Shown here: piece after piece, positions 7,530 to 42,585 of the stretch
Layout: every line of letters begins with the position of its first letter
How positions within the stretch are numbered: the stretch's first letter is position 1
Source: Pseudoips prasinana
Taxonomy: Eukaryota > Arthropoda > Insecta > Lepidoptera > Nolidae
Assembly: GCA_951640165.1 (NCBI GenBank)
Contig: OX621246.1
Location: 6,287,001 to 6,351,000 of the forward strand
Direction: 5' to 3'
Length of the DNA: 64,000 nucleotides
Translations under genes and position numbers: made by a program
Notes under the pieces: generated by a model
What the model saw: only the letters and a program-made list of their open reading frames with translations
Database searches by the model: none
Told to the model about the DNA's origin: nothing

Positions 7530-8696
7530 TTTGAGTTGCATCTGTTATTTATATTAAATACAGTGCTGGTTTTAGTAATATCATATAGTGTGTATTGCGA
7601 ATTTCATAATGGACAAAAATATCGAACAAAGAGTTTGTCTTAAATTTTGCATCGCTAATGGAATTTCGTGTTCGGAGTCACTGAAAATATTACAGAAGGC
7701 TTACGGTGAATCGACTTTATCAAAAACTCGTGCTTATGAGTGGTTCAAAGCGTTCAAAAGCGGTCGAGATGTGATGAAACATTTGCCTCGCTCTGGTAGG
7801 CCATCAACGTCTGCAACTGAAGTTAACATCGCAAAAGTGAAGGAAATAGTGACTGAAAATCCTCATTCAACTCTGAGAGAGATAGCCGTCGAACTTTCTG
7901 TATCTCACGAGTCGATTCGTACCATTTTAACTAATCATTTGGGTATGAAACATGTTGCCGCTCGGCTAGCCCCAAAAGATCTGAATTTTCTCCAAAAACT
8001 CAATCGCATGAAAGTAGATGAGGACATGGTAGAACGAGTCAATTCCGACCCAGCATTCATGAAACGCATTGTTACTGGTGACGAGACGTGGGTTTACGAG
8101 TTTGACATGCAAACTAGTCAACAAGCTTCGGAGTGGCGCCTTCCAACTGAACCGAAACCGAAAAAACCACGCCAAAGTCGATCAAAAGGCAAAGTCATGT
8201 TGACAGTTTTCTTTGACTATCGCGGTGTTGTGCACTCTGAATTCTTACCGGAAGGTCGAACGGTAAATAAAGAATATTATTTGAGCGTTATGCGGCGTTT
8301 AAGTGAGCAAATTCGACGAAAAAGGCCAGATTTGTGGAAAGAAAATTCTTGGATTTTGCACCACGATAACGCGCCTTCGCACAAGGCCATCATTGTGAAC
8401 GAATTTTTGACCAAACACTCAACAAATACCATCCAGCAACCACCATATTCACCAGATATGGCTCCAGCTGACTTCTTTCTTTTTTCTAAACTCAAATGAC
8501 CACTTCGTGGTACCCGTTTTCAATCGGTAGAAGATATAAAGGAGAATTTGCGGCGAGAACTGAACTCAATTCCGTATTCGTTGGCGTAAGTGTATCGTTT
8601 CTGAAGGAGCATACTTTGAATGTGATGAAATAAATTTGGATGAATAACAAACATTTTATATTATTGCTCTTTTCCCGGTACTTTCTTGACAGAGTA
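7530..8696 (+). mobile_element. Mariner element, 5' end not recognisable
   Basis: It surrounds the transposase frame. The right terminus is probably the 'gctcttttcccggtactttcttgac' region ending at a TA (8695-8696), which resembles mariner terminal repeats. A matching inverted copy is not visible upstream of the ATG, so the 5' end seems lost or overwritten next to the Helitron. A non-autonomous relic. Confidence 0.7.
7609..8499 (+). pseudogene. Mariner transposase with premature stop
   Basis: The start is the ATG at 7609 (MDKNIEQRV...). An N-terminal paired-like helix-turn-helix DNA-binding region (about residues 1-110) is followed by the catalytic domain. The D,D34D triad is complete: 'TGDETWVYEFD', 'HHDNAPSH' and 'YSPDMAPADFF', with 34 residues between the second and third Asp. 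The frame ends at TGA 8497-8499 inside 'KLK-stop-PLRGTRF'. In-frame sequence continues after it ('FQSVEDIKENLRRELNSIP'). A deletion with frameshift then removes about 15-20 residues, and 'RWRKCIV...INLDE' follows to a natural stop near 8647. So the C-terminus is broken twice although the catalytic core is intact. In this family the protein cuts and pastes DNA at TA sites. Confidence 0.92.
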
Positions 8697-9188: not shown

Positions 9189-12085
9189 CTTTTTTTTTTT
9201 TTTAACGGGACTAGTCCCTCCCTCTTACCCACCACTGCAACTCCTGTAAGCCAGGATCAACAGTGGCACACAATGAAATGACACTGAGCGGTGAAGCTCA
9301 GGCATGTCCCGGGGAATCGCTTTAACTGTCTTGGATCCCGCAACGAATTTAATCAGAAACAGAAAAAAGGAGGAGTTAGAAAATGAATAGTTCCACTTCC
9401 CTCCAGAGCAAAGCGGGAGACAGAATGATGTAAAGAGGCTATAGCCTCATAAAATGAGAGATTTGCAACTAGAGAAGCCAGCTGCAAAAGCACCGAGGAT
9501 CAATTTAAGGGTCCTAAGTGAGCTGTTATATTTGATTCCAATAGTAGGTATGGCAAAAACGCTTAAACGCACGGAAGTTGTTCCTTGTTGCTACAAGATC
9601 CGTATAATAAACTACTCCAGATATTGGTTGCAAGCTGTTTAACATAATATCACGCTGATTTTGCCAGAGATCACACTCCCACAGGATGTGGTGAGCAGTT
9701 TGTTCATATTCGTTACTGGACGTTGAGCACAGACAGATTGGTGAAGATACTAATTTGAAACTATACAATTTACTTTTAAAATTGCCGTGTCCGGTAAGAA
9801 ATTGTGCAACACAATGGTCTATGATTAGCCAAGTTTTATTTAACCGTTCGCGTACGTCCGGAAAGAACTGGTGCAGATGGCGACCCTTGGTTGAAGAATT
9901 CCATCTACATTGCCATTCATTTAGTAGTTCGTTATTTAAGTCAGCTATTGGCATAAATAGCCTGGTTATTTTCGCACGGTCGCGTAATGATAAGAAATCA
10001 TTTTCTAAATTATCGCGCGTAGAATAATACATTGCTGCTCGTCTTTGTACTTCAAGATCAACCGGTAGTACACCCGCTAGGACAGGTAGGGCCTCTGTGC
10101 TCACTGTTCTATAGGCTTTACACAGAAATATCAACGCCAACCTCTGGCTTTGTAGTAATTTACGGCGAGCAGCTCCGATGGTAGCCCTATCAGCCCACAC
10201 AGGCGAGCCGTAGCATATACACCCAAGATAGGTTGCCCCGTAAATGATTTTAAGAGTATTAAAAGAGAGGCCCCAGGTTGCCGTCGATATCCTTGTAAGT
10301 GCAAAAAAGTTTCGCTTAGCTTTTTCCCCAACTGATTTAATATGTTCTATAAACGAGAAATTCTTTTCTAAAACTAAGCCCAAATAACAGGTTGATATTT
10401 TGCGTTTTACAGTAACATTATTAAGTTTTACGCCCGGGGGGGATTTTAGTTCACCTTTAAGAAGGAGTTGGTAGGTTTTATGAGGAGCAAATGTAAGGCG
10501 ATTTCTTTTACCCCATTCACTTATCATACTTAAGCAAGTTTGAGCCAGATTTTCCAACTCTCTCCTGGAGTTACCCTGTATAAGTAAGAGGCCATCGTCA
10601 GCATATGCCGTTAGAGAGCAGCGTGATGGCAAGGGTAATGTCAAGAAGTCATCAAAACCCAAGTTCCAGAGATACGGCGCGAGCACTGAGCCCTGGGGGC
10701 AACCCATGGTTAACGATTTAGTGACTCTGAAGTGACCAAGCTTAAGAGTTGCAGAGCCATGTACGAAATAAGATGTGATTATCGAATATATATTACTGTA
10801 ACAACCGCGTAACTTAAGTTTTTGTAACAAAATTGGCCACCAAGTATTATCAAACGCCCCTGAAATATCTAGGAATATGGCCAAAACGTATTTACATTCG
10901 GACGAGTTTACAGCTTTCCTCACTGAGATAGCTGCGTCCACTGTCGATTTACCCGCAGTAAAACCAAATTGATTTCCGTGAAATTTTGGTCCTCCCGGCA
11001 GCAATCGCGGTACAATAAGTCGTTCTAGAAGCTTGCCTAAGGAAGGCAGTAACGTTATTGGTCGGTATGACTTAGGGTCTTCGGGCAGTTTATCGCCATT
11101 TTTTGGTATAATACGAATAAAACCGCTGCGCCAAGAACGCGGAAAAGTCCCTTCAGATATGCAACGATTAAAAACTTTTAGTATTGAATCACCGGATTGT
11201 TTTGTGGCTTCTATTATCATTTTGTTGGATATTTTATCTTCACCTGAAGCTTTGTTAACAGGTAGCGATTTCACAGTATTCATAAACTCATTAATTGTAG
11301 GAAGACTAGACATATAGGTAGCGGGTGGATTGTTTGCCCACTGTCTAATCTGCTTATGGTAGTCATTATCGTTCAAGGAACTATCATCAGGTATGAGCGA
11401 ATTAAGTAAGGATTCCGTGGTCTCCTCTATGCCACTGGTGTAGGTATTATTGATTTTTATGTTTTGAATATAAGCTAAATCTATAGACCTATTTGCTTTA
11501 AACTCATGGTATAGGGGCGACCACGGGCCTTCTTTATCTAATTTATCGACTATTTTTCTAATAAGATTGCCTTTGGATTTCTCTATTGACGAGCGGTAAT
11601 GTGAACGAGCTATTTTGAGATTTATATATGCATTATTTAAAACATCGCCTACAATTTTACGTTTTTTTAGTTTATTATATTTTTTACGTGCTCTCCGAAA
11701 TTCACATCGAACTTTAATTAAGTAGTTATTCCACCAATCGCATCTTCGAATATTAGTGATAGGGACGCGGCCTATGGCAATATCGGCACAGTAGGTAAAA
11801 GTGTCCGACATCATTACAGCACATTCCTCTGTTGTTAGTTCATCCCGGGTGAAATCCCTGGCATGCAATGGATCGAATGGGGTAGCCTTGAAACAGTCGG
11901 AAGTGTTCAGTAGTATTGTTAATCCTATATCAATTCGGTCTATGTGTCGATGACCTTTTGTAATCCAAGCTACTCTTACTAATCCTAAGATTAAGAACTT
12001 TTCCACGAAAATCCACAAGCGTTCTTGACATCTCAAAAGTTCATTCACCCCAATCCTTTGGCATTCCAAAAAACTATTCTAATGA
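9189..12085 (-). mobile_element. R1-like non-LTR retrotransposon, copy 1
   Basis: A minus-strand element. Its 3' end is a poly(A) tail (poly(T) at 9190-9203), preceded by a UTR of about 320 bp and the RT frame at 9526-12069. The start region keeps an endonuclease-like 'IVFWNAKGLG' in another frame near 12040-12075, then most of the endonuclease is missing, so this copy is shortened at the 5' side. The 3' 456 bp is identical, apart from a 2-nt indel, to the copy at the right edge of the window. Confidence 0.85.
9526..12069 (-). CDS. R1-clade LINE ORF2: reverse transcriptase (5'-shortened)
   Basis: 847 codons are open, but the nominal first codon is TTG, so it is a truncated frame rather than a complete gene. 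In order: a short endonuclease remnant, a linker ('WWNNYLIKVRCEFRRARKKY'), then the reverse transcriptase with 'NQFGFTAGKSTVDAA', the palm motif A 'FLDISGAFDNTWW' (near 10847-10880), 'GCPQGSVLAP', and catalytic 'AYADDGLLL' (near 10594-10605). The C-terminal part has the CCHC motif (C-L-C ... H-H-I-L-W-E-C). In this family ORF2 nicks target DNA and copies the RNA in place. The RT motifs look intact; the endonuclease does not. No stop interrupts the frame, which suggests the copy is young. Confidence 0.9.
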   Translation of the reverse strand: MECQRIGVNELLRCQERLWIFVEKFLILGLVRVAWITKGHRHIDRIDIGLTILLNTSDCFKATPFDPLHARDFTRDELTTEECAVMMSDTFTYCADIAIGRVPITNIRRCDWWNNYLIKVRCEFRRARKKYNKLKKRKIVGDVLNNAYINLKIARSHYRSSIEKSKGNLIRKIVDKLDKEGPWSPLYHEFKANRSIDLAYIQNIKINNTYTSGIEETTESLLNSLIPDDSSLNDNDYHKQIRQWANNPPATYMSSLPTINEFMNTVKSLPVNKASGEDKISNKMIIEATKQSGDSILKVFNRCISEGTFPRSWRSGFIRIIPKNGDKLPEDPKSYRPITLLPSLGKLLERLIVPRLLPGGPKFHGNQFGFTAGKSTVDAAISVRKAVNSSECKYVLAIFLDISGAFDNTWWPILLQKLKLRGCYSNIYSIITSYFVHGSATLKLGHFRVTKSLTMGCPQGSVLAPYLWNLGFDDFLTLPLPSRCSLTAYADDGLLLIQGNSRRELENLAQTCLSMISEWGKRNRLTFAPHKTYQLLLKGELKSPPGVKLNNVTVKRKISTCYLGLVLEKNFSFIEHIKSVGEKAKRNFFALTRISTATWGLSFNTLKIIYGATYLGCICYGSPVWADRATIGAARRKLLQSQRLALIFLCKAYRTVSTEALPVLAGVLPVDLEVQRRAAMYYSTRDNLENDFLSLRDRAKITRLFMPIADLNNELLNEWQCRWNSSTKGRHLHQFFPDVRERLNKTWLIIDHCVAQFLTGHGNFKSKLYSFKLVSSPICLCSTSSNEYEQTAHHILWECDLWQNQRDIMLNSLQPISGVVYYTDLVATRNNFRAFKRFCHTYYWNQI

Positions 12086-31183: not shown

Positions 31184-31821
31184 GGGGTGCTAGGTCGGAA
31201 AACCTCCTCGTGGTGCACCCTGGGCACGAGCGGCAGTCTTTCTTAATATTTTGGGAGAGACTGCTGCTCGTGGCGAATATTCCGACACAGGGGGGGGGGG
31301 GCGGAATCTGCCAAGATCCTGTGGTCGTATCTTGGCGGACCTTCCATACATCATGTATGGTAGGAATTCCGCAACGACCACCCGCGTGTTAGTGCCGTGC
31401 GCGGGGACCCGTACGGGGGGATGAAGGAGTCCTGGAGGTTGAGTTGGTGAGGGGTCGGGCAGTAGTTATCCCTCACCCGCAACACGCCTCTTTGGTCCGG
31501 ATTTCCCCTTACACGGGCGGTCGGGGTCTAGCCGGGCCCCGATCAATCGGCTGCGACGTCCGGTCGGACGGCCGTCAAGGCTAGCCATGGGTAGGCGTAA
31601 CTGCAGGTGGCGTCTGGGCTGGCGCCGTGTGCCGGTCTGCAGACGAAGGCGCGCGCCGTGCTGGACATTGGGCTGTCCAGTATCAGTTCGCGTTGGAGGT
31701 CTCGCAGATTGGCATAATCCCATGGCTATACCGCCCAATATCCCTGGTGCTTGTAAAGCATCCCCTTTGAGGGCTCGATGGAGGGTGGGGAATTGGGTTG
31801 GTGAACGCCATTTTATCATTT

Positions 31822-33690
31822 ATGGAAGAAAAACAGAATACACAAATTGCCCAACCGCAAGTTAAGGTAATCGCCTTAACTCCTGAGGAGCTAGCGGGTG
31901 TGCCAGGTGTGGTGCACCCCATAGCAGATAAAGAGGTGAAGGTAGCGAAGGCTGCTTCTAAGAAGAAGGCCGCTAGAAAGGTCAGGGAGACCTTTTCCCG
32001 TCCGGCCACTCCAGTACCTGGACCATCGAGGGAACAAGCCGCGGGCACGGAGAGCGATAGCTCTCTTAGGTCCGCGGTTTCCATGGAGTCGGTATCCAGC
32101 CGAGATGGCCGCGCGGAGACTCCTGGCTCGAAACGGACGAGACGCGCCGAAAAGGATGGGCGTCAGGTCAAGGCCGCAAAGCTTTGTGGGAAGACCGACG
32201 GGAGTGTGCTGGAGCTAGAGAACCAGCGGCTACGCTCCCAGTTGGCCTCCTTAGAGGCGCGGGTGGCCGCCATGTCGGCGGAGATGGCGGAGCTTCGTAA
32301 GAGGGATATCGGGGCTTATCCGCCATTGCCTTCGCCATCCCAGCAGTCACCACCTGCTCCGCGGTCAGCGCCGTCTTTGAGACCGTCTCCGCCGCCGGCA
32401 CCGGTTGTCCACGCTCCATCGTCGCCGCAACCGGCACCGATAACTTGGAGGAGCAATTTAGATGCTCCCCGTGCTGTACCTGCTCGGGAAGACCACGTCT
32501 CGCCTGAAGACAGATTTGCGGCCATTCTGGACCGCAAACTGCGAGAAATGGGGCGCATCTGGGACCAGCGTTTGGTTCAGATGCGCCAGGAGGTCATGGC
32601 AGAGGTCTTTCCGGGCAGGGCCGTCCGCCCACCACTCGCTGGGAGCGGAGCGCCGCCCCAAGTGCCACCCACCGCGAAACGGGGTGGCCGGCAGCGGAGA
32701 CGGGCTGCCGCCGCAGAGGCCGCTGCGGCTAGGAATGCGACGATGCCGGTGCGGTCAGCGCCACCGCCACCCGCCGAGGGTACATGGGCCCAGGTGGTTG
32801 GCCGAAAGGCCAAGGCCAAGGCTGCCCACCTTAATCGGCCACTGCCGCCTTCGCCTCCAAAGAGGCCTATCGCACTGCCGCGACCTCCACCGTCCGCGGC
32901 AGTGACGATAAACTTGCCGTCGACCTCGGCCACTACCATGGCCGAGGTCTTGAAGATGGCAAGGACCAAAGTCCAATTGCAGGACCTTGGCCTGGAGGCT
33001 GGCCTTCGCCCCAAGAGGGCTTTGACCGGGGGTCTTATTTTGAGGATCCCTGGTCCAGAGGGGTCCGCGAAGGCGGAGGCCCTCACTACTCGGCTAAGGG
33101 AAGCCTTAGCTGAGACGGGTGCGGTGGTGGCGCATCCTGTCGTAATGGGAGAGCTCCGGGTGATGGACCTGGACGACTCCGCCGACCCCACCGAAGTGGC
33201 TGAAACAATAGCCACGGCGGGAGGATGTGCCGTCGCCGACGTAAAAGTCGGCGAAATTAGGTTCTCCCCGTCGGGCTTAGGTTCGGTGTGGGTTCGGTGC
33301 CCACTAGTGGCCGCCCGCAAATTAGCGGTAATCGGCCGGGTACTAGTGGGCTGGATGTCGGTCCGGGTGGTGGCGCTTCCACCCAGAGCTCTCCAGTGCT
33401 ACCGCTGCCTGGAGAAGGGGCACGTCAGGGTTCGGTGCACAGGGTGCGACCGGAGCGCGTCGTGCTTCGTCTGTGGCCAACAGGGCCACAAGGCGAAGGA
33501 ATGCATGGCGCGCGCCCCTCACTGCGTAGTGTGTGCCGACCTTGGCAGGCCGGCAAACCATCGCCTGGGCAGCGGTAGGTGCACGCCACCCAAGAGAAAG
33601 GGAGCGGGACGTCCTGCCACGTCCGCTCCTACATCGTCGCGGTCCAACGATCCGGGCTCTGGCCCCGGTGGGGTGTCCATGGAGGTCTAA
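31822..33690 (+). CDS. R1-clade ORF1 (Gag-like nucleic-acid binding protein)
   Basis: The start chosen is the first ATG, at 31822 (MEEKQNTQ...); 31798 would be a TTG. 622 codons, uninterrupted. The N-terminal third is charged and Ser/Pro-rich. Residues about 129-161 look like a coiled coil ('ELENQRLRSQLASLEARV'). A Pro/Ala-rich middle follows. The C-terminal part has a knuckle series: C526-x2-C529-x4-H534-x4-C539, C548-x2-C551-x4-H556-x4-C561, then a third, irregular one ('HCVVCADLG'). In this family ORF1p binds the element RNA and forms the RNP that carries ORF2p to the target. ORF2 begins in another frame around its stop. Confidence 0.92.
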   Translation: MEEKQNTQIAQPQVKVIALTPEELAGVPGVVHPIADKEVKVAKAASKKKAARKVRETFSRPATPVPGPSREQAAGTESDSSLRSAVSMESVSSRDGRAETPGSKRTRRAEKDGRQVKAAKLCGKTDGSVLELENQRLRSQLASLEARVAAMSAEMAELRKRDIGAYPPLPSPSQQSPPAPRSAPSLRPSPPPAPVVHAPSSPQPAPITWRSNLDAPRAVPAREDHVSPEDRFAAILDRKLREMGRIWDQRLVQMRQEVMAEVFPGRAVRPPLAGSGAPPQVPPTAKRGGRQRRRAAAAEAAAARNATMPVRSAPPPPAEGTWAQVVGRKAKAKAAHLNRPLPPSPPKRPIALPRPPPSAAVTINLPSTSATTMAEVLKMARTKVQLQDLGLEAGLRPKRALTGGLILRIPGPEGSAKAEALTTRLREALAETGAVVAHPVVMGELRVMDLDDSADPTEVAETIATAGGCAVADVKVGEIRFSPSGLGSVWVRCPLVAARKLAVIGRVLVGWMSVRVVALPPRALQCYRCLEKGHVRVRCTGCDRSASCFVCGQQGHKAKECMARAPHCVVCADLGRPANHRLGSGRCTPPKRKGAGRPATSAPTSSRSNDPGSGPGGVSMEV

Positions 33691-36600
33691 AATTCTTTCC
33701 CCCCCAACTTATTTTGCAGGGCAACTTGAACCACTGCATCGCTGCGCAAGCTCTTCTTGCGCAGACGATTGCTGAGCGTTCGGTTGCCCTAGCGATAGTG
33801 GCGGAGCCTCACTCCGTTCCCGACCACCCTCGTTGGTTCGGGGCGGATGGGGGCCTCGTCGCCATTTATTGGGCAGGGGGGGAACGTGACCCCTATTGCA
33901 CACTCCTGGCCAAGGGGCCCGGATTCGTCGTCGTGGAGTGGGGACCAGCAGTCGTGGTGGGCTGCTACATCTCCCCGAATTGCGGCCTCGCAAATTTTGA
34001 GGCGTACCTGGACGAGCTAACGAGCCATATTAGCTCTTACCAGTCCCGTCCGGTACTCGTCCTGGGCGATTTTAACGCCCACTCTAGCGCGTGGGGCGAT
34101 GCCCGGGACGACGTTCGAGGGGAGTTACTGCTGGAATGGGCCGCCGGACTGGACCTCCGTCTTTTAAATCGGGGTTCAGTCAGCACCTGTGTGCGGTGGC
34201 AGGGGGAGTCGATGACCGATATCGTCGACTTGACGTGGGCGACTCCCTCGGCCATGCACCTGGTCTCGGGGTGGAGAGTTGCGGAGGAAATTGCCACGCT
34301 GTCGGATCACCGACACATCGTTTTCAGCGTGGCCTTCCGTCCGCCCCGAGGCGGCCCTGACCGCAGTAATGTTGTCCCACCGCGGCGCTGGTGCCTACGC
34401 CGCTTGGACCGCGACATGTTGACGGCTGCCGCCGTCGCCATCGCCTGGGGTGCGAGTGAGGGTGGAGAGAGGATCCCGTCCGATCCCAATTCGCAAGCGG
34501 GCTGGTTCCGGGGCATCATGTCTCGCATCTGCGACACGTCGATGCCCCGGATCCGTCCGGGTGACAGACGAGGCTCGCAGTATTGGTGGTCGGCCGAAAT
34601 CGCGCGACTCCGTACGGAGTACGTCGCAGCGCGTCGCCGACACCAGCGGGCCCGTCGGAGGAGGCGAGCCAATGCCGAAGAGGCTGCCGGAGCGCACAGG
34701 GCGTATCAAGTCGCCGTCAAGGCGCTATCCATCGCGATAGTGGAAGCCAAAGCTCGGTCCTGGAACGAGCTCATCGAGGGACTGGATAGGGACCCATGGG
34801 GGCGCCCGTACAAAATGGTACTGGGCAAGCTCAGACCGTGGGTCCCTCCGTTGACGAGCACCCTGGACCCGGACTTTCTGAGGAGGGTGGTGGACACCCT
34901 CTTCCCTAGGGTCCAGGACAGTCCCTCGGACCCTCCGTCACCGTCGTACCATGATTGGGACGACCAGTTGGAGGTGATGGAGGGGGAGCTGGACCGAGCA
35001 GTACGGCGACTTGCGGCCCGAAATACCGCCCCTGGCCCGGATGGGATACCGGGCAGGGCGTGGGTTTGCGCCCTGGCAGTCCTGGGAAACCGGTTGAGGC
35101 AACTGTTCACCAGCTGCCTCCGTAGTACCGTGTTCCCCACCTGCTGGAAAGAGGCAAGGCTAGTGCTCTTGAGCAAGCCGGGCAGGACCGCCGATTCTCC
35201 CTCGGCGTTCCGACCAATATGCTTGCTGGACGAGGTGGGCAAGCTCTTTGAGCGTGTCATCGCCGCCCGTCTCAGACATCGTCAACGCCTTCAACTCCGT
35301 CCCCTGGCGGGCGATACGGGAGGCACTGGTCCATCACAACGTGCCTCCCTATCTCCGTGGTATAGTCGGGGCATATTTGCGCGACAGGACGATTCAATTC
35401 GTCGGTCGGAACGGGACTGAGTTCCGGAGGGAGCTCTCCTGCGGGGTTCCTCAGGGGTCCGTGCTAGGACCTCTGCTATGGAGCCTCGCATACGATGCGG
35501 TCCTGAGGATAAGCCTCCCTCCCGGGGTGAGCGTCGTCTGCTATGCGGACGACACGCTCGTCATAGCCCGGGAGGCAAGTTTCCAGCGGGCGGTACGGCT
35601 CGCCGAACTCGGTGTCGCGTGTGTCGTCGCGGCCATAACGAGACTGGGCCTTCGGGTAGCGCCTCACAAAACCGAGGCGCTATGGTTCCACGGCTTACGC
35701 CGTAGGGAGGAACCACCCAGTACATCGATGCGTGTAGGTGACGCAGAGGTCAGGGTGGGGCGGTACATGAAGTACCTGGGCCTCACCCTAGACAGCCGAT
35801 GGGGCTTCGAGGAGCATTTCGAGCGTCTGGCCCCCCGAGTGCGCCGGGTAACCGGCGCGTTACACCGGCTTTTGCCGAACCTCGGGGGTCCCAGGGAAGA
35901 AGTTCGCCGCCTCTACGGAGGTGTCGTGCGGTCCATGGTCCTTTATCGGGCGCCCGTCTGGTCTGAACGCCTGACGGGCGCCTCCCGCTGCAGGGCTATC
36001 TTGAACAGCCTGCAGCGTGTGGTGGCCATACGGATCGCACGAGGATATCGAACGATATCCTTTGAGGCGGCGACACTCCTGGCGCGCTTTCCACCGTTTG
36101 ATCTCCTGGCGGCAGTCGACGCGACGGTTTTCACCGAAATCCGCGTCCGCCGGGAGAGCGGTGAGGCGCCAGAGCAGACGCTCGTTGCCTACAGGCGGGA
36201 AGCACACCGGCGCGTACTTGTACAGTGGCGCGCAAGGCTTGAGTTGCGGCTGAACGCGCGCCAACGTGCCGTCGGTGCTATCCTGCCTCACCTCGAGGCC
36301 TGGGTGGGAAGGAAGGGCGGTTGCGTCACCTACAGACTGACTCAGATACTCACCGGACACGGGTGTTTCGGTGAGTATCTGTGCCGGATCGGCCGAGAAG
36401 TGACGACACACTGTCACCATTGCGGGAGCGACCTGGACTCTGCCCAGCATACGCTGGAGGAGTGCCCGGCCTGGGAGGCCAAGAGACGAGTCCTGGTCGC
36501 TGAGATCGGACGGGATCTTTCGCCGCCAGCAGTCATGTATGCGATGCTGGCTGGCGACTCCACCAAATGGGACGCCGTGGTCTCCTTCTGCGAAGCAGTC

Positions 36601-36693
36601 ATGCTCCAGAAGGAGGCCGCCGAGCGGGATCGGGAGCGAGCCGACCCCGCTCGTAGACGGAGGAGGCGTCGGGGCGGCGGCGGCAGCCGTTAG
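33672..36693 (+). pseudogene. R1-clade ORF2 (endonuclease-RT), broken by internal deletion
   Basis: Frame 1 starts around the ORF1 stop with no ATG nearby, so coupled reinitiation or frameshifting is likely. The AP-type endonuclease has 'LILQGNLNH', 'VAEPHS', 'LVLGDFNAHSSAWGD' (about 34058-34100) and 'SDHRHIVF' (34302 on). The RT starts with 'NTAPGPDGIPG' and reaches 'GKLFERVIAARL' near 35277. There the frame changes to the one reading 'DIVNAFNSVPWRAI', 'GVPQGSVLGP', catalytic 'CYADDTLVIA' (35542-35553) and the CCHC 'HCHHCGSDLDSAQHTLEEC', with a stop at 36691. Compared with the other R1-like protein in this window, about 45 residues (the 'GFxxGxST' segment) are missing at the join. The deletion shifts the frame, so no complete ORF2p can be made. 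Confidence 0.93.
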
Positions 36694-36930
36694 CCCTACT
36701 CCCCTCGGGGTTGCGGTGGCAGTATGAGAAGTGTCCTCTACTGCTGCCATGTGCAAGCAGCCCCGGGAAGACAGCGAACTGTTTGTGGCACAGTCGCTGT
36801 GCCGTACTGGCAGGAGTCGGCAAATGGGGAGGGCAACTCACAGTCCTCCCCGGTGCGTGTCCCGACCATCTGGGACACGGCGCAAAAGGGGGGCACCGGA
36901 GCAGCATACCCGCGTTCCCGGGGCTCAAAA

Positions 36931-36944
36931 AGGTCGTCAAACTA
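36931..36944. repeat. Target-site duplication (right), 14 bp
   Basis: An exact copy of 31170-31183. It follows the element's 3' 'ctcaaaa'. Confidence 0.9.
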
Positions 36945-36994
36945 AATCTTCTTAAAATTCTATAGTATGAATGGTCGCACTGTTTAGTATGGCG

Positions 36995-37100
36995 GTTTTG
37001 ACTGCCCCGCAGGTCTAGCGGTAGCATGTTCAACCACAGGTAATGGTTACGAGGTTTGAATCCCAGGTCAGCCCAAAAAGTTTTATTGGGATTTTTGCAT
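36995..37100 (+). mobile_element. SINE-C head fragment
   Basis: 'gcaggtctagcggtagcatg' (A box) and 'gaggtttgaatcccagg' (B box), then the body start 'ttttattgggatttttg'. Not a functional tRNA: the stem does not close. Confidence 0.65.
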
Positions 37101-37159
37101 GTTGATGTGCTACACGTTGTTCAATTCGATAAGCCAATCTCTTTAAATTCGTCCACATT

Positions 37160-37390
37160 TGTGTTACGCCGCTAGTCGTGGGTTCGATTCCCATCCAGGA
37201 GCAGCAATTTGTGTGCATGAACTTGTATGTTATTCCTGAGTGTGGGTGTAATTATCTATATAAGAATGTATTTACAAAAGACAAGTAGTAAAAGTAGTTA
37301 TCTGGTTTTCATAGTACAAGCTCTGCTTAGGTAGCGATCAGATGGCCGTGGCCGTGAGTGACTAATGACGCAGGATAGTTATTTATTATT
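37160..37390 (+). mobile_element. SINE-A, A box lost
   Basis: B box 'gggttcgattcccatcc', 'aatttgtgtgcatgaac', 'ttatctggttttcatagtac', 'aagctctgcttaggtagcga', 'tcagatggccgtggcc'. The 3' tail lies near 37390. Confidence 0.7.
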
Positions 37391-37394
37391 TTAT

Positions 37395-37930
37395 TTATTT
37401 ATCACAACAAAAAGTTCTTAATGTACACAAAAAAAACTAGTTTGTTTTGAAAAGATAGGACAAAGTTTGGAAGTTCCAAACGCAGGGATTTGAAGCAAAG
37501 TTCAAAGGTTTAAAGAGATAAAAGCTGGGTTTTGTTACTGGAAATCGATGCCGAGCCCCATGAAAAGGGGATTTGTAACTTTCTCAATGTATAGATTCAC
37601 CTTTTTAAACACAGAGTAGTAAATCAAGTAGAAGCCCCTTTTTTGATAATTCAAAAAATGTCTGCGGGTGGGTATGTCGGAGTAGCACCGTCTGAACGTA
37701 ACCTGTCGTATCTCGGCGTCTGATGGCACGGGTACGCGGCTATGAGGTGTCGTTTTTGTGGTATTCCGTAGAGTCTGATTCTATATAATATAATGTGCCA
37801 TGCACATAGCTTATTCAATATAATGTTTAACCAAGGCTTTGTGCCGAGATCACAGCTCAATTTCTACATTACAAAACAACGGGTGGTATAGACGTGAAAC
37901 GTGGCATTCAGAATTAATAAATAAATATTT
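37395..37930. other. No recognisable gene
   Basis: Overlapping antisense frames at 37535-37860 have no recognisable similarity. Possibly the UTR of an unidentified element. Confidence 0.4.
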
Positions 37931-37934
37931 ACAA

Positions 37935-38240
37935 CTAAGACACCGCCATCCCAAACCAGGCAGAGTCTGTACTATGGCAACCAGACAACTGATTAACATA
38001 CTTATATAATCTAAATAATATTTAATTATTTTTTAATAATAATAATAATTTATTACAGATAAAATTCTTAACAACTAAGACATAAAATAAAACTACAAAT
38101 ACAATTTTTTTTAATTATAAACTACAAATACACCCATATTATAGATAAATTGCACAGTGCTCATCACACAAAGTTGGGGATCGAATCCGCGACCTTTGGC
38201 TTAGCAACCAGGGCCAATAACCACTAGCCCAAAAGCCAAC
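37935..38240 (-). mobile_element. SINE-B with inner AT-rich expansion
   Basis: 3' module 'ccatcccaaaccaggcagag' and 'ctatggcaaccagacaactg', an (AAT)n/A-rich expansion at 38000-38110, then the head 'ggggatcgaatccgcgacct' (B-box side) and 'aaccactagccc'. Confidence 0.65.
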
Positions 38241-38394
38241 TCATAAATTTCAATTTGTGTCTACATATTTCTTTCTTGAAACTTATGTTCGTCAAGAAAT
38301 ACAGTAATTTACTGACATGAGAAAAAGCTAGGTTTTTATAAAAATATATTTTAATAAAATGCTTAACTTAAATATACTAAAAGAAAGTCGCTAC
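38241..38394. other. Short AT-rich spacer
   Basis: No feature. Confidence 0.3.
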
Positions 38395-38521
38395 GTACAC
38401 ACGGCTACATATCAAGCTATACGTTTCTAATATAAGCTGACCTCTCATTGTATGGAAATCCTATACAACTCGAGATCAGCTTATACTGGAAATGTATAGC
38501 TTGATATGTAGCCGTGTGTAC
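38395..38521. mobile_element. Fold-back MITE, full copy (127 bp)
   Basis: Arms of about 50 bp (38395-38444 and 38472-38521) begin GTACACACGGCTACATATCA and pair with a few mismatches. Relatives: a half copy near 58436-58495 and a shorter fold-back at 59395-59466. All share 'gtatagcttgat' and 'ataagctgacct'. Confidence 0.8.
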
Positions 38522-38602
38522 ATCAAGGGTGACGGCCGTTGGTTTTATATAAAAAGTATACATGCACGCCAACAACCCACGCTACAAATCAATTTTTTAC
38601 AC

Positions 38603-38607
38603 AGTCG
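38603..38607. repeat. 5-bp target duplication, left (AGTCG)
   Basis: AGTCG directly precedes the element terminus CACAGTG and is repeated at 39939-39943 directly after the other terminus. Confidence 0.8.
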
Positions 38608-38855
38608 CACAGTGGTTCGTGTAGAACAAGCTAGCTGGACAATATTATTTGTTTCGATTTTTATTTATAAATGAGGTTATTAAGCAAAGATATAAGGGTC
38701 ATAATACTATTTGAGGTCCATTGGTCGTTTGAGCAGGTATAGTGAAATAAAAACACAATATTTTTTTAAACAATTTTATAAATAAATTTAACTATAAATG
38801 TAACTATAAAATCTAATATTAGATACATAAAATACCTACTTAAAAACTAAATCGA

Positions 38856-39413
38856 TCACTCATCATCACTATCATCAGATGAATCATCCATTGAATAGTC
38901 ATGATCATGAGTGGCAGAACTATGAAAACTAGAAACTATATTAACATTTTGTTCCTTAAAGCTAGGTTGAACTAATAAATCTAGGACTTCGATAGGGAAT
39001 GAACCTATTTTCTTCCGGGGAATTTCTCTTAAACCATTTATTACAGGGTCAGATGTTATCAATAACATATTAAGTAAATCTCTATTCGTAGCTATTCGCG
39101 ATCGTTTTCGTGTGTTGTGTTCACGAAATCTTCTGCAGTCCTTATTCCGAGCTTCCTGTGCTTCCTCGGAAAGCTGGCCTATAGGCAGAAGTGACGATTT
39201 AATTACCTCGCCACTGTGCAGAAGTATTTTGTGAACAGTCGCGGGCATATAATACCATGGATAGAGATTTACGTAAAGTTGTCTGGTTTCTTGAGCTAAG
39301 GTTACAAATTTTTCAATATTTATGTCATATCCTGATGATAAAGTACGAAGTAGTATGCTAAATTTTTGTATAAGTGAAACATCTAACCCTGTAATATCGG
39401 CACTTGCCGTTTA
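38856..39413 (-). CDS. Transib transposase, C-terminal exon (partial)
   Basis: Reading from 39408 to a TGA at 38856-38858, about 184 codons are open without an initiating ATG at the front. The internal ATG at 39248 is not the likely start. Upstream on this strand is a long pyrimidine tract, then an AG, as before a 3' splice site, so this is probably a terminal exon. It contains 'VHKILLHSGEVIKSSLLPIG' then 'QLSEEAQEARNK', 'RRFREHNTRKRSR' and 'LLITSDPVINGLRE'. These line up with the end of the RAG1 core (helix with HK..H, the 'SE' glutamate of the DDE triad, and NK..RRFR). It ends in an acidic tail 'MDDSSDDSDDE'. It supplies the third catalytic residue; the two aspartates would lie in the lost upstream part. 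Confidence 0.8.
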
Positions 39414-39898
39414 AAGAAAAAAAAAGAAAAAAATTTGTTGTGCAAATAATTCGCAATATTTTTTTCTACTAATTACTACTAGATACTTGTGAGAATCATA
39501 TAAAATAGATTTTACAGAGTGGACATGAGTGGACATGTAATATTTTGACTATTGAATTCAAAAATATGGGTGAAAAAGTCCACTTTTATCGAAACATTTA
39601 ATTTAATAAAATTAAATAATGAAGATCCTGTGATAAAAATTAACTAAAACAAAACTACTTACCCTTATGTACACAATCCATCACAAAAACACTATCACAA
39701 ATTTCTTTTAGTGACTTAAAATAATGTTAACAATATGGTGTAAAAATGCAAATGAATGCACTTTGAATTATCAACACTTTATATACTTACCTTAATGACG
39801 GGCCTAATGAGGGTAATTACGAAAATTAATAGATGTATTCCTTAATGTATAGGGCTAATGAGTTCATCTTAATAATTAACTATTAGGAATTGAAGAGT

Positions 39899-39938
39899 TG
39901 TTTTTGTCCAGCTAGTTTGTTCTACGCGAATAACAGTG
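39899..39938 (-). promoter_or_regulatory. RSS-like terminal repeat (heptamer-24-nonamer)
   Basis: On the minus strand: CACTGTT (39932-39938), a 24-bp spacer, then ACAAAAACA (39899-39907). The nonamer differs from the V(D)J consensus in the last base only. The other terminus (38608-38647) has a perfect heptamer CACAGTG but a weak nonamer. In this superfamily these are the transposase binding and cleavage sites. Confidence 0.75.
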
Positions 39939-39943
39939 AGTCG

Positions 39944-40095
39944 GTAGGTACTCCATATTTTTATGAAGCCTTTTCATGTCAAAAAGCCGTTACATTTTAA
40001 AGAGTTTAAGTGTGTTAAGGGAGTTAGACTCTGTTTGCCTAACTGACAGCAATGAATATCATGACCCCATTTCATCTCGTAGGGCGCCGCATCTC
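39944..40095. other. Short spacer
   Basis: No feature recognised. Confidence 0.3.
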
Positions 40096-40099
40096 AGCG

Positions 40100-40253
40100 T
40101 CGCTCTGTGTACTACCACCATGCGATAGTCAACCCATCCGCCAAGTGTGACGATTATGACATATCCCCCCAACGAATGGACACACTTTCATTGTGGAGAT
40201 ATTTGGGGAAGGCCTTTGAGTCCCAGCAGTGGACGTCATTCCGCTGATATGGC
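40100..40253 (+). repeat. RTE-type LINE 3' end
   Basis: 'ccgccaagtgtgacgattat' 'gacatatcccccc', 'gtggagatatttggggaagg' 'cctttgagtcccagcagtgg' and 'cattccgctgatatgg'. Non-coding 3' end. The next element begins directly after it. Confidence 0.65.
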
Positions 40254-40261
40254 GAAGGCTC

Positions 40262-41108
40262 GGCGCACGAATTGAACTCGCACGAAACGTGCGAATCGAT
40301 TCTTTTTAATAATAATATTTTTTCTGTAGGCGATTCGCACGACGTTAATTAATTGGTGTGCGAATAGACTCCTCTAAAAATATGTAGTAGGCTATTGGCA
40401 CACAAATTATTTTTTATGAAATGCAGTTAAGATAAAGTATACTTGAGTTCATAAGTAATAAGGGTAAAATGTGTTTTATTACAAAAGAAAAACAAACAAA
40501 ATACAAAATAATCAAAAATATCTTTATTAAAATTAAACCTAAGTACTTAACATCCTCTAAGCTCACTATGACCTGATTTGAGGATAAAAATGTTAAAATA
40601 TCGATCACAGAGTAATAAATTAGTGATACCAAGCGCAGGATACCAAAAAATAGAGAAGTACCAAAACTAGTGATGAAAAATAGATTTACGCGAGTGAGCG
40701 TGATGGAATATAGTGCTTTCTCTTTAAATTTTTCCTATAATAGGCAAATATTGCTGTTTTTCTCTTATTGTTTTGTATTAATAAGCGTGTAGATTTGCTA
40801 CGTTTTAGGTGATAATTATTACTTATTTAATGCAAATCTTTCTTACTTTCAAGTATTTTTTTTTTATTAAAACTTGGATTATTTTTTAGTTTTATATCAG
40901 TGACGGCTGTGTACGACTGTACTTACATTTTTTTATTCCTTAGAATAAAATGTTTGCCAATAGCCTACTACATTATTTTTGGAGGTGTCGATTCGCACAC
41001 CAATAAATTAACTTCGTGCGAATTGCCTACAGAAAAAATAATATTATTGAAAAGAGTCGATTCGCACTTTTCGTGCGAGTTCAATTCGTGCAAATCGTCC
41101 AATAAGCT
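40262..41108. mobile_element. DNA element with about 135-bp inverted repeats
   Basis: The left arm (from 40266) and right arm (to 41090) are inverted matches of roughly 135 bp: 'cacgaattgaactcgcacga', 'ttttttctgtaggc', 'attggtgtgcgaat', 'atgtagtaggctattgg'. 'attcgcac'-type words recur inside the arms. GAAGGCTC occurs just outside at 40254-40261 and 41109-41116 and may be an 8-bp duplication. The 540-bp centre is AT-rich and has no gene. Superfamily not assigned. Confidence 0.75.
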
Positions 41109-41116
41109 GAAGGCTC

Positions 41117-41495
41117 AAGCAAAAGTACCTAACTGTCCTCGCCACTTCTGGTATCTTTTCTATGTTTTAACGGTCTAGAGTTTTTATAAAAACAAACTTT
41201 GGTTGAATCCTCATTGATCTCCATAGTTTGATCCGAGAAAAAAATAAGCATCTGAACGGTTTTCGAGTTATGTTTTTATATTTAACTGTATTTATCAACC
41301 GACCTCAAAAAAGAGGATGTACCCAAGTCGACTGTCTTTTTTTATGTATTTATTTGATTTACCTTTGAAGTTAACTATACTACTATAATACACGTAGTGC
41401 GGCAAATACACACGATGTCCCTAAAAACGGACCCAGCATGCATCTCCACATCAGTAACAGTCCTGACCCGAGGTTTGAACCCTAAAGGTGCTCTG
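41117..41495. other. No gene; two short repeat fragments
   Basis: 41294-41340 ('ccgacctcaaaaaagagga') is a common lepidopteran repeat end. 41400-41490 resembles the 472-699 repeat ('catctccacatcagtaacag'). Confidence 0.4.
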
Positions 41496-41499
41496 AAAT

Positions 41500-41695
41500 A
41501 ATGAAATTTATTCAGGGTTTGTGCATGATTATTTGTTCCATATCTTGGTGTAATTTATCTTTAGTAAGTATGTATTACGAAATATATAAGTATGTTGTCA
41601 GTTGTCTGGTTGCCATAGTCAAGGCTCTACCTAGTTTGGAATCAGACGGCAGTGTGTTAGTTGTTTCAAAATACTTATTTATTCATAAATTTGAC
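41500..41695 (+). mobile_element. SINE-B, 3' part
   Basis: 'ttatctttagtaagtatgta' ... 'gtcagttgtctggttgccat' ... 'ggctctacctagtttggaat' 'cagacggcagtgtgtt'. The tRNA head is missing. Confidence 0.65.
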
Positions 41696-42585
41696 ATGTT
41701 GGAGTCGGTTGTATGTTTTTTTAACCTTAATCATAGTGTATGTTCATAATTCATTGGGCTTAGCTCTTATTACAACATATTAAAGTTTAAAATGCCCTGG
41801 TAACTGTTATTCAGTTGTCCAATTGGGGTTAAAGCATTTTTTGATGAGAAACATCTATAGCACGCAAAACAGATTTCTGGCGTGGCGACGCATGCCGTGG
41901 CGCATGTGCAATCGACTTTTTATTTTGCCATTTTGACATATTTAGTTCCTATCACAATATGTTCTTTTCTGCATATTACTTTTACAAAATAATGTCGATG
42001 TTTCACATCTGCCAGGCGTCCCGTGACGGCTAACATTTTTTTTTATTCCAGAATCACTTGCATTCTCTTCTGAGAAAAGTCGTAAACTCCTTTTTTCAAG
42101 AACTTAAAAGATACGCTTTCTCACTTTTATGACATCACAAAACAGCGATTAGCTGTACAAGTACCATAAAGTGTCTACTTAGTTTTTAAACCGCAATCTT
42201 ACAGCGTGATCTTAGAAGATTCGGGACAACTTAGAGTTCAGTTTTATGAGTTTTTAAGTGGCCATTATGACGGTGGAAGGCCGGTTAATGTCTTTATGTT
42301 GGGGGACAGTCGTGCATGGAAATTTTGTTGAGCGCCATTTAAAGGTGGCTGAGCCCTTCGATATTACCCGCGGTATAGTAGTATTTTATACACTATGTAT
42401 TATTTCATGATATAAGCTATCTACATTCCAAATTTTGTCCGAATTCATTCCATTGTTTTGGCGTTATTGAGTAACAAACGTATTCACGCAGGAGCGTAAA
42501 ACCTCTTCTGTGAAAACCTTTCTACAGGTAAAGACCTCCTAAACTTAATTTAAAAAAGGAAAGTAACTGTATATTATTAAAAAAA
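41696..42585. other. No recognisable gene
   Basis: AT-rich, no repeat match or ORF with similarity. Confidence 0.4.

Follow-up and report, generated by a model that had tools for sequence, protein, structure and literature searches.

The 1,331-bp element at positions 38608-39938 of the window (the whole stretch of 64,000 nucleotides analysed here, positions 6,287,001 to 6,351,000 of contig OX621246.1 of the moth Pseudoips prasinana) is very probably, at about 95%, a non-autonomous derivative, made by deletion, of a Transib family that was active recently, judging from its own sequence and those of its relatives. Transib is an accepted relative of the RAG1 core, and in this one genome intact parents occur together with about 480 left ends, copies that are nearly identical, and deletion derivatives of several independent origins. 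A recently spreading Transib accompanied by internally deleted copies is of a kind already described in Drosophila (PMC12974806, PMC12230796). The interest of this otherwise known kind is raised by two features of the family. The first is a natural experiment on one base of the terminal heptamer, in which one deletion with its filler is combined either with T or with G at position 7, the two forms differing greatly in number; the second is a site that resembles a signal joint laid down in the germ line. Both the heptamer contrast and the joint rest on few events.

The boundaries of the window element are clearly marked. The pentanucleotide AGTCG directly flanks it on both sides, at 38603..38607 on the left and 39939..39943 on the right, and this exact 5-bp target-site duplication, seen in the sequence itself, lies outside both ends as a preliminary description of this DNA had reported. 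Within it are terminal inverted repeats, the left one, of 35 bp, at 38608..38642 (plus strand) and the right one at 39904..39938 (minus strand). The left repeat opens with the heptamer CACAGTG (38608-38614), present as described, and the right one has the heptamer CACTGTT at 39932-39938. The two repeats match at 30 of 35 positions, whereas 60 mononucleotide shuffles of the two 400-bp segments containing them gave at most 23 of 35. The same two ends delimit the family as a whole: a perfect 5-bp duplication stands outside them in 57 of the 59 two-ended copies fetched. These duplications are GC-rich, as had also been proposed, with 69% G+C across the 57 copies compared with 49% in the adjoining flanks; their first base is C in 45/57 and their last is G in 46/57, and the exact form CGNCG is found in 14/57. 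Duplications of 5 bp are likewise made by Transib1 and hopper, two Transib elements of Drosophila, the latter of which reportedly prefers CCANTGG (PMC3276498). One copy of the deletion class B described below (L059; C1:36475496, minus strand) has unlike flanks, CGGCG and CGACA, and is possibly a recombinant or a copy with a mutated duplication. About 80 bp to the left of the window copy lies a separate hairpin element (window 38395-38521), with 59-nt arms that are 88% complementary and 9 nt between them.

The ends had been called RSS-like, on the strength of the heptamers and of the motif ACAAAAACA at a spacing of 24 bp from CACTGTT. The letters are as reported: the nonamer-like ACAAAAACA occupies 39899..39907 on the minus strand, 24 bp off the right heptamer, and agrees with the RSS nonamer at 8 of 9 positions. 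A nonamer on both sides is not borne out, the left end reaching 5/9 at equal spacing. Matches of at least 8/9 are found at 4 of 5,538 positions inside the parent element, both strands counted. A signal complete with nonamer was rejected: a match this good would seldom be met at a given place, but it was singled out post hoc and belongs to the right end only, and it is probably not significant. The RSS likeness of the window element is good for the heptamer only, and its ends are symmetric inverted repeats. The ends of Hztransib are reported to be likewise symmetric and clearly heptamer-like, with little or no nonamer (PMC8289069). HzTransib is a separate family from another genome, likened to ours here by protein match. 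With V(D)J signals and RAG1 the P. prasinana family shares the heptamer, a weak RAG1 similarity and one signal-joint-like site; unlike V(D)J signals, it has neither a 12/23 spacer pair nor a two-sided nonamer. Some other Transib families reportedly have near-12/23 ends (PMC8355894).

Full-length relatives of the window copy are present in the same genome. An element search of the P. prasinana assembly (1.126 Gb, 56 contigs; 40 of 582 candidates scored) gave 41 rows, of which 12 covered the whole or nearly the whole query, two belonged to one copy, and 27 were restricted to positions 1-801 at an identity that rounds to 100%. When the 27 loci of the last kind were fetched, 26 were two-ended, all 26 with matching 5-bp duplications; the one exception (L043) has no right end. 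Twenty of the fetched parent loci are exactly 2,849 bp long. The reference parent (L010) contains a single unbroken minus-strand frame of 683 codons, the one long frame among the minus-strand frames listed for the 2,849-bp element, and a frame of 683 aa is intact in 19 of the 24 near-full-length copies (2,839-2,849 bp; L066, from outside these 27 loci, is the 24th). The remaining five have frames of 682, 596, 596, 429 and 212 aa. Two longer loci on contig C25, L009 (C25:23546582, length 4,443) and L011 (C25:8738956, length 3,273), each contain in the 5' leader a nested insert bounded by inverted ends, of 1,594 and 424 bp respectively; these inserts are probably other transposons that arrived after the Transib copy.

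The parent protein identifies the family. It matches HzTransib of Helicoverpa zea (6PQN) over parent residues 168-628, at 429 bits and an E value of 2.6e-127, and Pfam RAG1 at 25.6 bits, barely above the cut-off of 25. A RAG-like (RAG1L/RAG2L) transposon in place of Transib might be considered, given that heptamer-like ends and 5-bp duplications are reportedly common to both groups (PMC7204232); set against the 429 bits to HzTransib, however, no RAG1 chain scores above 30.7 bits and the RAG1L match (6b40) has an E value of only 0.007, which makes this exceedingly improbable. Among ten aligned proteins, the parent included, D272 and E585 are found in at least nine and D377 in all ten, and we take these three acidic residues to be the catalytic ones. 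The closest database protein, a 682-aa relative (P0240; longest contig 2,979 bases) known here from the protein alone, shares 86% identity with the 683-aa parent across 98% of its length, and the second closest is 70% identical (7,985 candidates scored). The nearer hits that carry species names include Lepidoptera, together with other insects.

Alignment to the parent shows how the window copy was made, and bears out its description as an internally deleted Transib that lost the front of the transposase and kept both ends. Its left piece (38608..39408) corresponds to parent positions 1-801, and its right piece (39409..39938) to parent 2320-2849, which is the 5' leader as far as 20 bp before the ATG. 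The junction at 39408..39409 (parent 801/2320) shows no microhomology and marks the loss of 1,518 bp, from 20 bp before the ATG through codon 500. What is left of the coding region is a minus-strand frame at 38856..39410, open over 184 aa and containing both of the peptides quoted in the preliminary description; it consists of codons 501-683 of the transposase (the last 183) and one codon made by the junction. The frame matches the HzTransib transposase 6PQN (E 6.2e-43), in agreement with its assignment to Transib. A similarity to RAG1 had been expected as well and is seen, though weakly: the Pfam RAG1 match scores 16 bits, under the cut-off of 25, and RAG1 chains are matched at an E value of 0.16 (RAG1L) and weaker. 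The region of the candidate third catalytic residue is retained, as had been stated, and E585 is the only one of D272, D377 and E585 that the window copy keeps; its codon (39153..39155, minus strand) pairs in the HMMER alignment with the E of RAG1 GNE, presumably E962. When 238 relatives were compared by tblastn with window positions 36001-42500, the best 25 rows beyond the frame showed weak similarity throughout (best E 0.005) and all fell outside the element, which gives no sign of other transposase pieces there. Viral and prokaryote collections contained pattern matches but no relative by tblastn.

The reading of the frame as a terminal exon does not hold. In the parent all 683 codons form a single uninterrupted frame, so the window frame is no exon, and its start is not a splice site, because it coincides with the deletion junction at 39408/39409. 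A wider proposal of this kind would have the element be a spliced Transib or a domesticated gene, its last exon kept for host or regulatory use, for example as a truncated repressor. The openness of the C-terminal frame over 184 aa and a pyrimidine tract just upstream of it could be read in this way, but the parent coding frame has no intron, which rules out the tract as a splice acceptor for the frame. In parents such as L010, the ATG is preceded by a long run of pyrimidines and then AAACAG; this is possibly the acceptor of a 5' leader intron, the AG of which was deleted in the window copy. Moreover, the first ATG of the window fragment is residue 55, the commonest class of deleted copies (class B) cuts into the same C-terminal part with a deletion that starts at parent 490, and the copies are too alike to show selection. 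Retention of an exon for use by the host is thus very unlikely, and the leftover frame would be a passenger in a deleted Transib.

That the deleted form is itself mobile is indicated by its copies. The junction 801/2320 is common to at least 13 copies (1,331 bp long in 12 cases and 1,237 bp in one), a lower bound because 40 of 582 candidates were scored. An intact 5-bp duplication of its own flanks each of 12 among these 13, and therefore the deleted form itself moved; the thirteenth (L035), without a duplication, is also the one among 55 aligned copies with an altered left heptamer. Six of the 12 full-size copies are identical at every base, the window copy has two private changes relative to its class, and the majority sequence of the class equals that of the parents at every compared base. 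The simplest account is that one deletion arose once and that its product then spread by transposition. Because the class cannot make a full transposase, the enzyme would have come from other copies, and the suggestion that a full copy could mobilize the window element is thereby supported, intact parents being present in the genome. We envisage that transposase from an intact parent binds both inverted ends of the deleted copy in trans and then nicks and hairpins its flanks, as HzTransib and RAG do; the excised copy would insert into a 5-bp GC-rich target.

The size and composition of the family were estimated from the left end. A 40-mer of this end, with up to two mismatches, is found at 480 sites in the genome, compared with none for the reversed control. 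We surveyed 100 of the 480 sites, all exact matches on contigs C1 to C6, reading the loci whole or by pieces of 61-321 bases; the sample is one by location, and is limited to copies whose left end is unchanged. Ten sites are of parent type (one without a right end, one recognized by its interior only), and one each is of the window class, of 1,768 bp and of 1,229 bp (class D, junction 663/2283). Class B or copies of its length with the right heptamer CACTGTG account for 76 sites, of which 20 were read whole (18 + 2) and the other 56 were assigned by right-end or joint reads, without the inner junction. Four sites hold copies of B length with CACTGTT. The seven others comprise three deletions seen once each (assuming an intact right end, about 1,550, 1,583 and 2,179 bp), two spots without element sequence, and a pair of neighbouring left ends, one of which is a 232-bp fragment.

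In class B, the junction between parent positions 490 and 2119 contains 15 additional bases; 13 of them duplicate sequence close by, as would be expected of template-using end joining. The majority sequence of the class differs from that of the parents by one base, parent position 2843, which is base 7 of the right heptamer and changes CACTGTT to CACTGTG. CACTGTT is found in 24 aligned parents, in the 13 window-class copies, in the 1,768-bp copy and in three longer parents (two with inserts and one with a duplication), and CACTGTG in all 18 aligned B copies (e.g. L051). The B deletion and filler are nonetheless confirmed in combination with CACTGTT at three sites (L108, read whole, and L115 and L116, read through L133 and L134); a fourth (L143) is assigned by length only. 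The deletion therefore probably preceded the change in the heptamer, after which the CACTGTG form became some 20 times commoner than its predecessor among the sites surveyed. Copy length was rejected as the cause of these numbers, since similar lengths are found in three rare forms: 1,331 bp in the window class, 1,229 bp in class D and 1,236 bp in B with the old heptamer.

Whether the heptamer base itself mattered can be judged partly from related enzymes. ProtoRAG is reported to prefer G at heptamer position 7, yet effects at positions 4-7 are slight to moderate and were obtained with several bases changed together (PMC8289069). In RSS, the TG at heptamer positions 6-7 is described as supporting a kink and as possibly critical for RAG binding, whereas among the last four heptamer bases the largest effects on binding are at 5 and 6, not 7 (PMC7337519). 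The abundance of class B may instead reflect chance, an older origin or escape from silencing, the base at position 7 merely hitch-hiking. Class B with CACTGTG is one lineage and hence one event, and its slightly higher divergence (0.09%, compared with 0.06-0.07% in the other two samples, which consist of top-scoring rows) may indicate a longer time of spread. Against this, the class B deletion is seldom combined with the old base (4 of the 100 sites surveyed, three of them confirmed), and other deletions of similar length that have this base are rarer still. On balance we incline towards hitch-hiking as the explanation.

A further observation bears on how the ends are processed. At C6:24858194-24860665 (L121-L123), two 1,236-bp copies, known from three short pieces and assigned to class B by length, lie head to tail with their heptamers abutting and no base between them; CGTTG flanks the pair on either side, with nothing in the middle. 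Had one copy inserted next to the other, 5 bp would separate the two, and unequal exchange would have left flanking DNA; neither is seen. The arrangement would most simply be the product of two excised ends joined before insertion, by analogy with a V(D)J signal joint, although it may be an assembly error. Reinsertion has been reported for circular hAT elements and RAG signal joints, and very few of the hAT circles had precise joints (PMC2803484). Among the listed titles on Transib with signal joints, circles, tandem dimers or heptamers, none names a Transib signal joint in a genome.

Taken with the heptamer contrast, the joint permits a tentative proposal, which we consider rather unlikely as it stands: that Transib copies are selected on the V(D)J heptamer, class B having risen after G at base 7 made both ends good substrates, and that the ends are precisely joined and the resulting signal joints can be reinserted. 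If true, the family would be a naturally occurring and recent counterpart of the ancestor that has been proposed for V(D)J recombination.

The copies of this family are very similar to one another. Their mean distance to the class majority is 0.06% for the window class, 0.07% for the parents and 0.09% for class B, in copies that all come from one assembly and, for the first two, were sampled from top-scoring rows, a choice biased towards young copies. A number of copies do not differ from their class majority at any aligned base. Both the low distances and the substitution-free copies point to recent movement. At a substitution rate of about 3e-9 per site per generation, distances of 0.06-0.09% would be of the order of 10^5 generations, an age that suits a family now dead, its copies being those of one ended burst with nothing moving today. 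The loss of the 683-aa frame from five of the 24 near-full-length copies, and the large excess of derivatives over parents among the 100 sites surveyed, such as late bursts show, would fit such an end, but 19 of these parents still encode the full protein, some copies are free of any substitution, and duplications are intact in 57 of 59. We regard extinction of the family as possible, if somewhat doubtful. A recent spread is on record for Transib1, which passed through D. melanogaster in 2013-2016, and two lethal insertions are reported to have internal deletions of about 1,500 and 200 bp (PMC12974806, PMC12230796).

The window also contains other long open frames. One at 7579-8499, of 306 aa, resembles a mariner transposase, as we take it from its motifs, and those at 9526-12078 and 31771-36693 presumably belong to non-LTR retrotransposons, whose proteins they resemble in having reverse transcriptase motifs.
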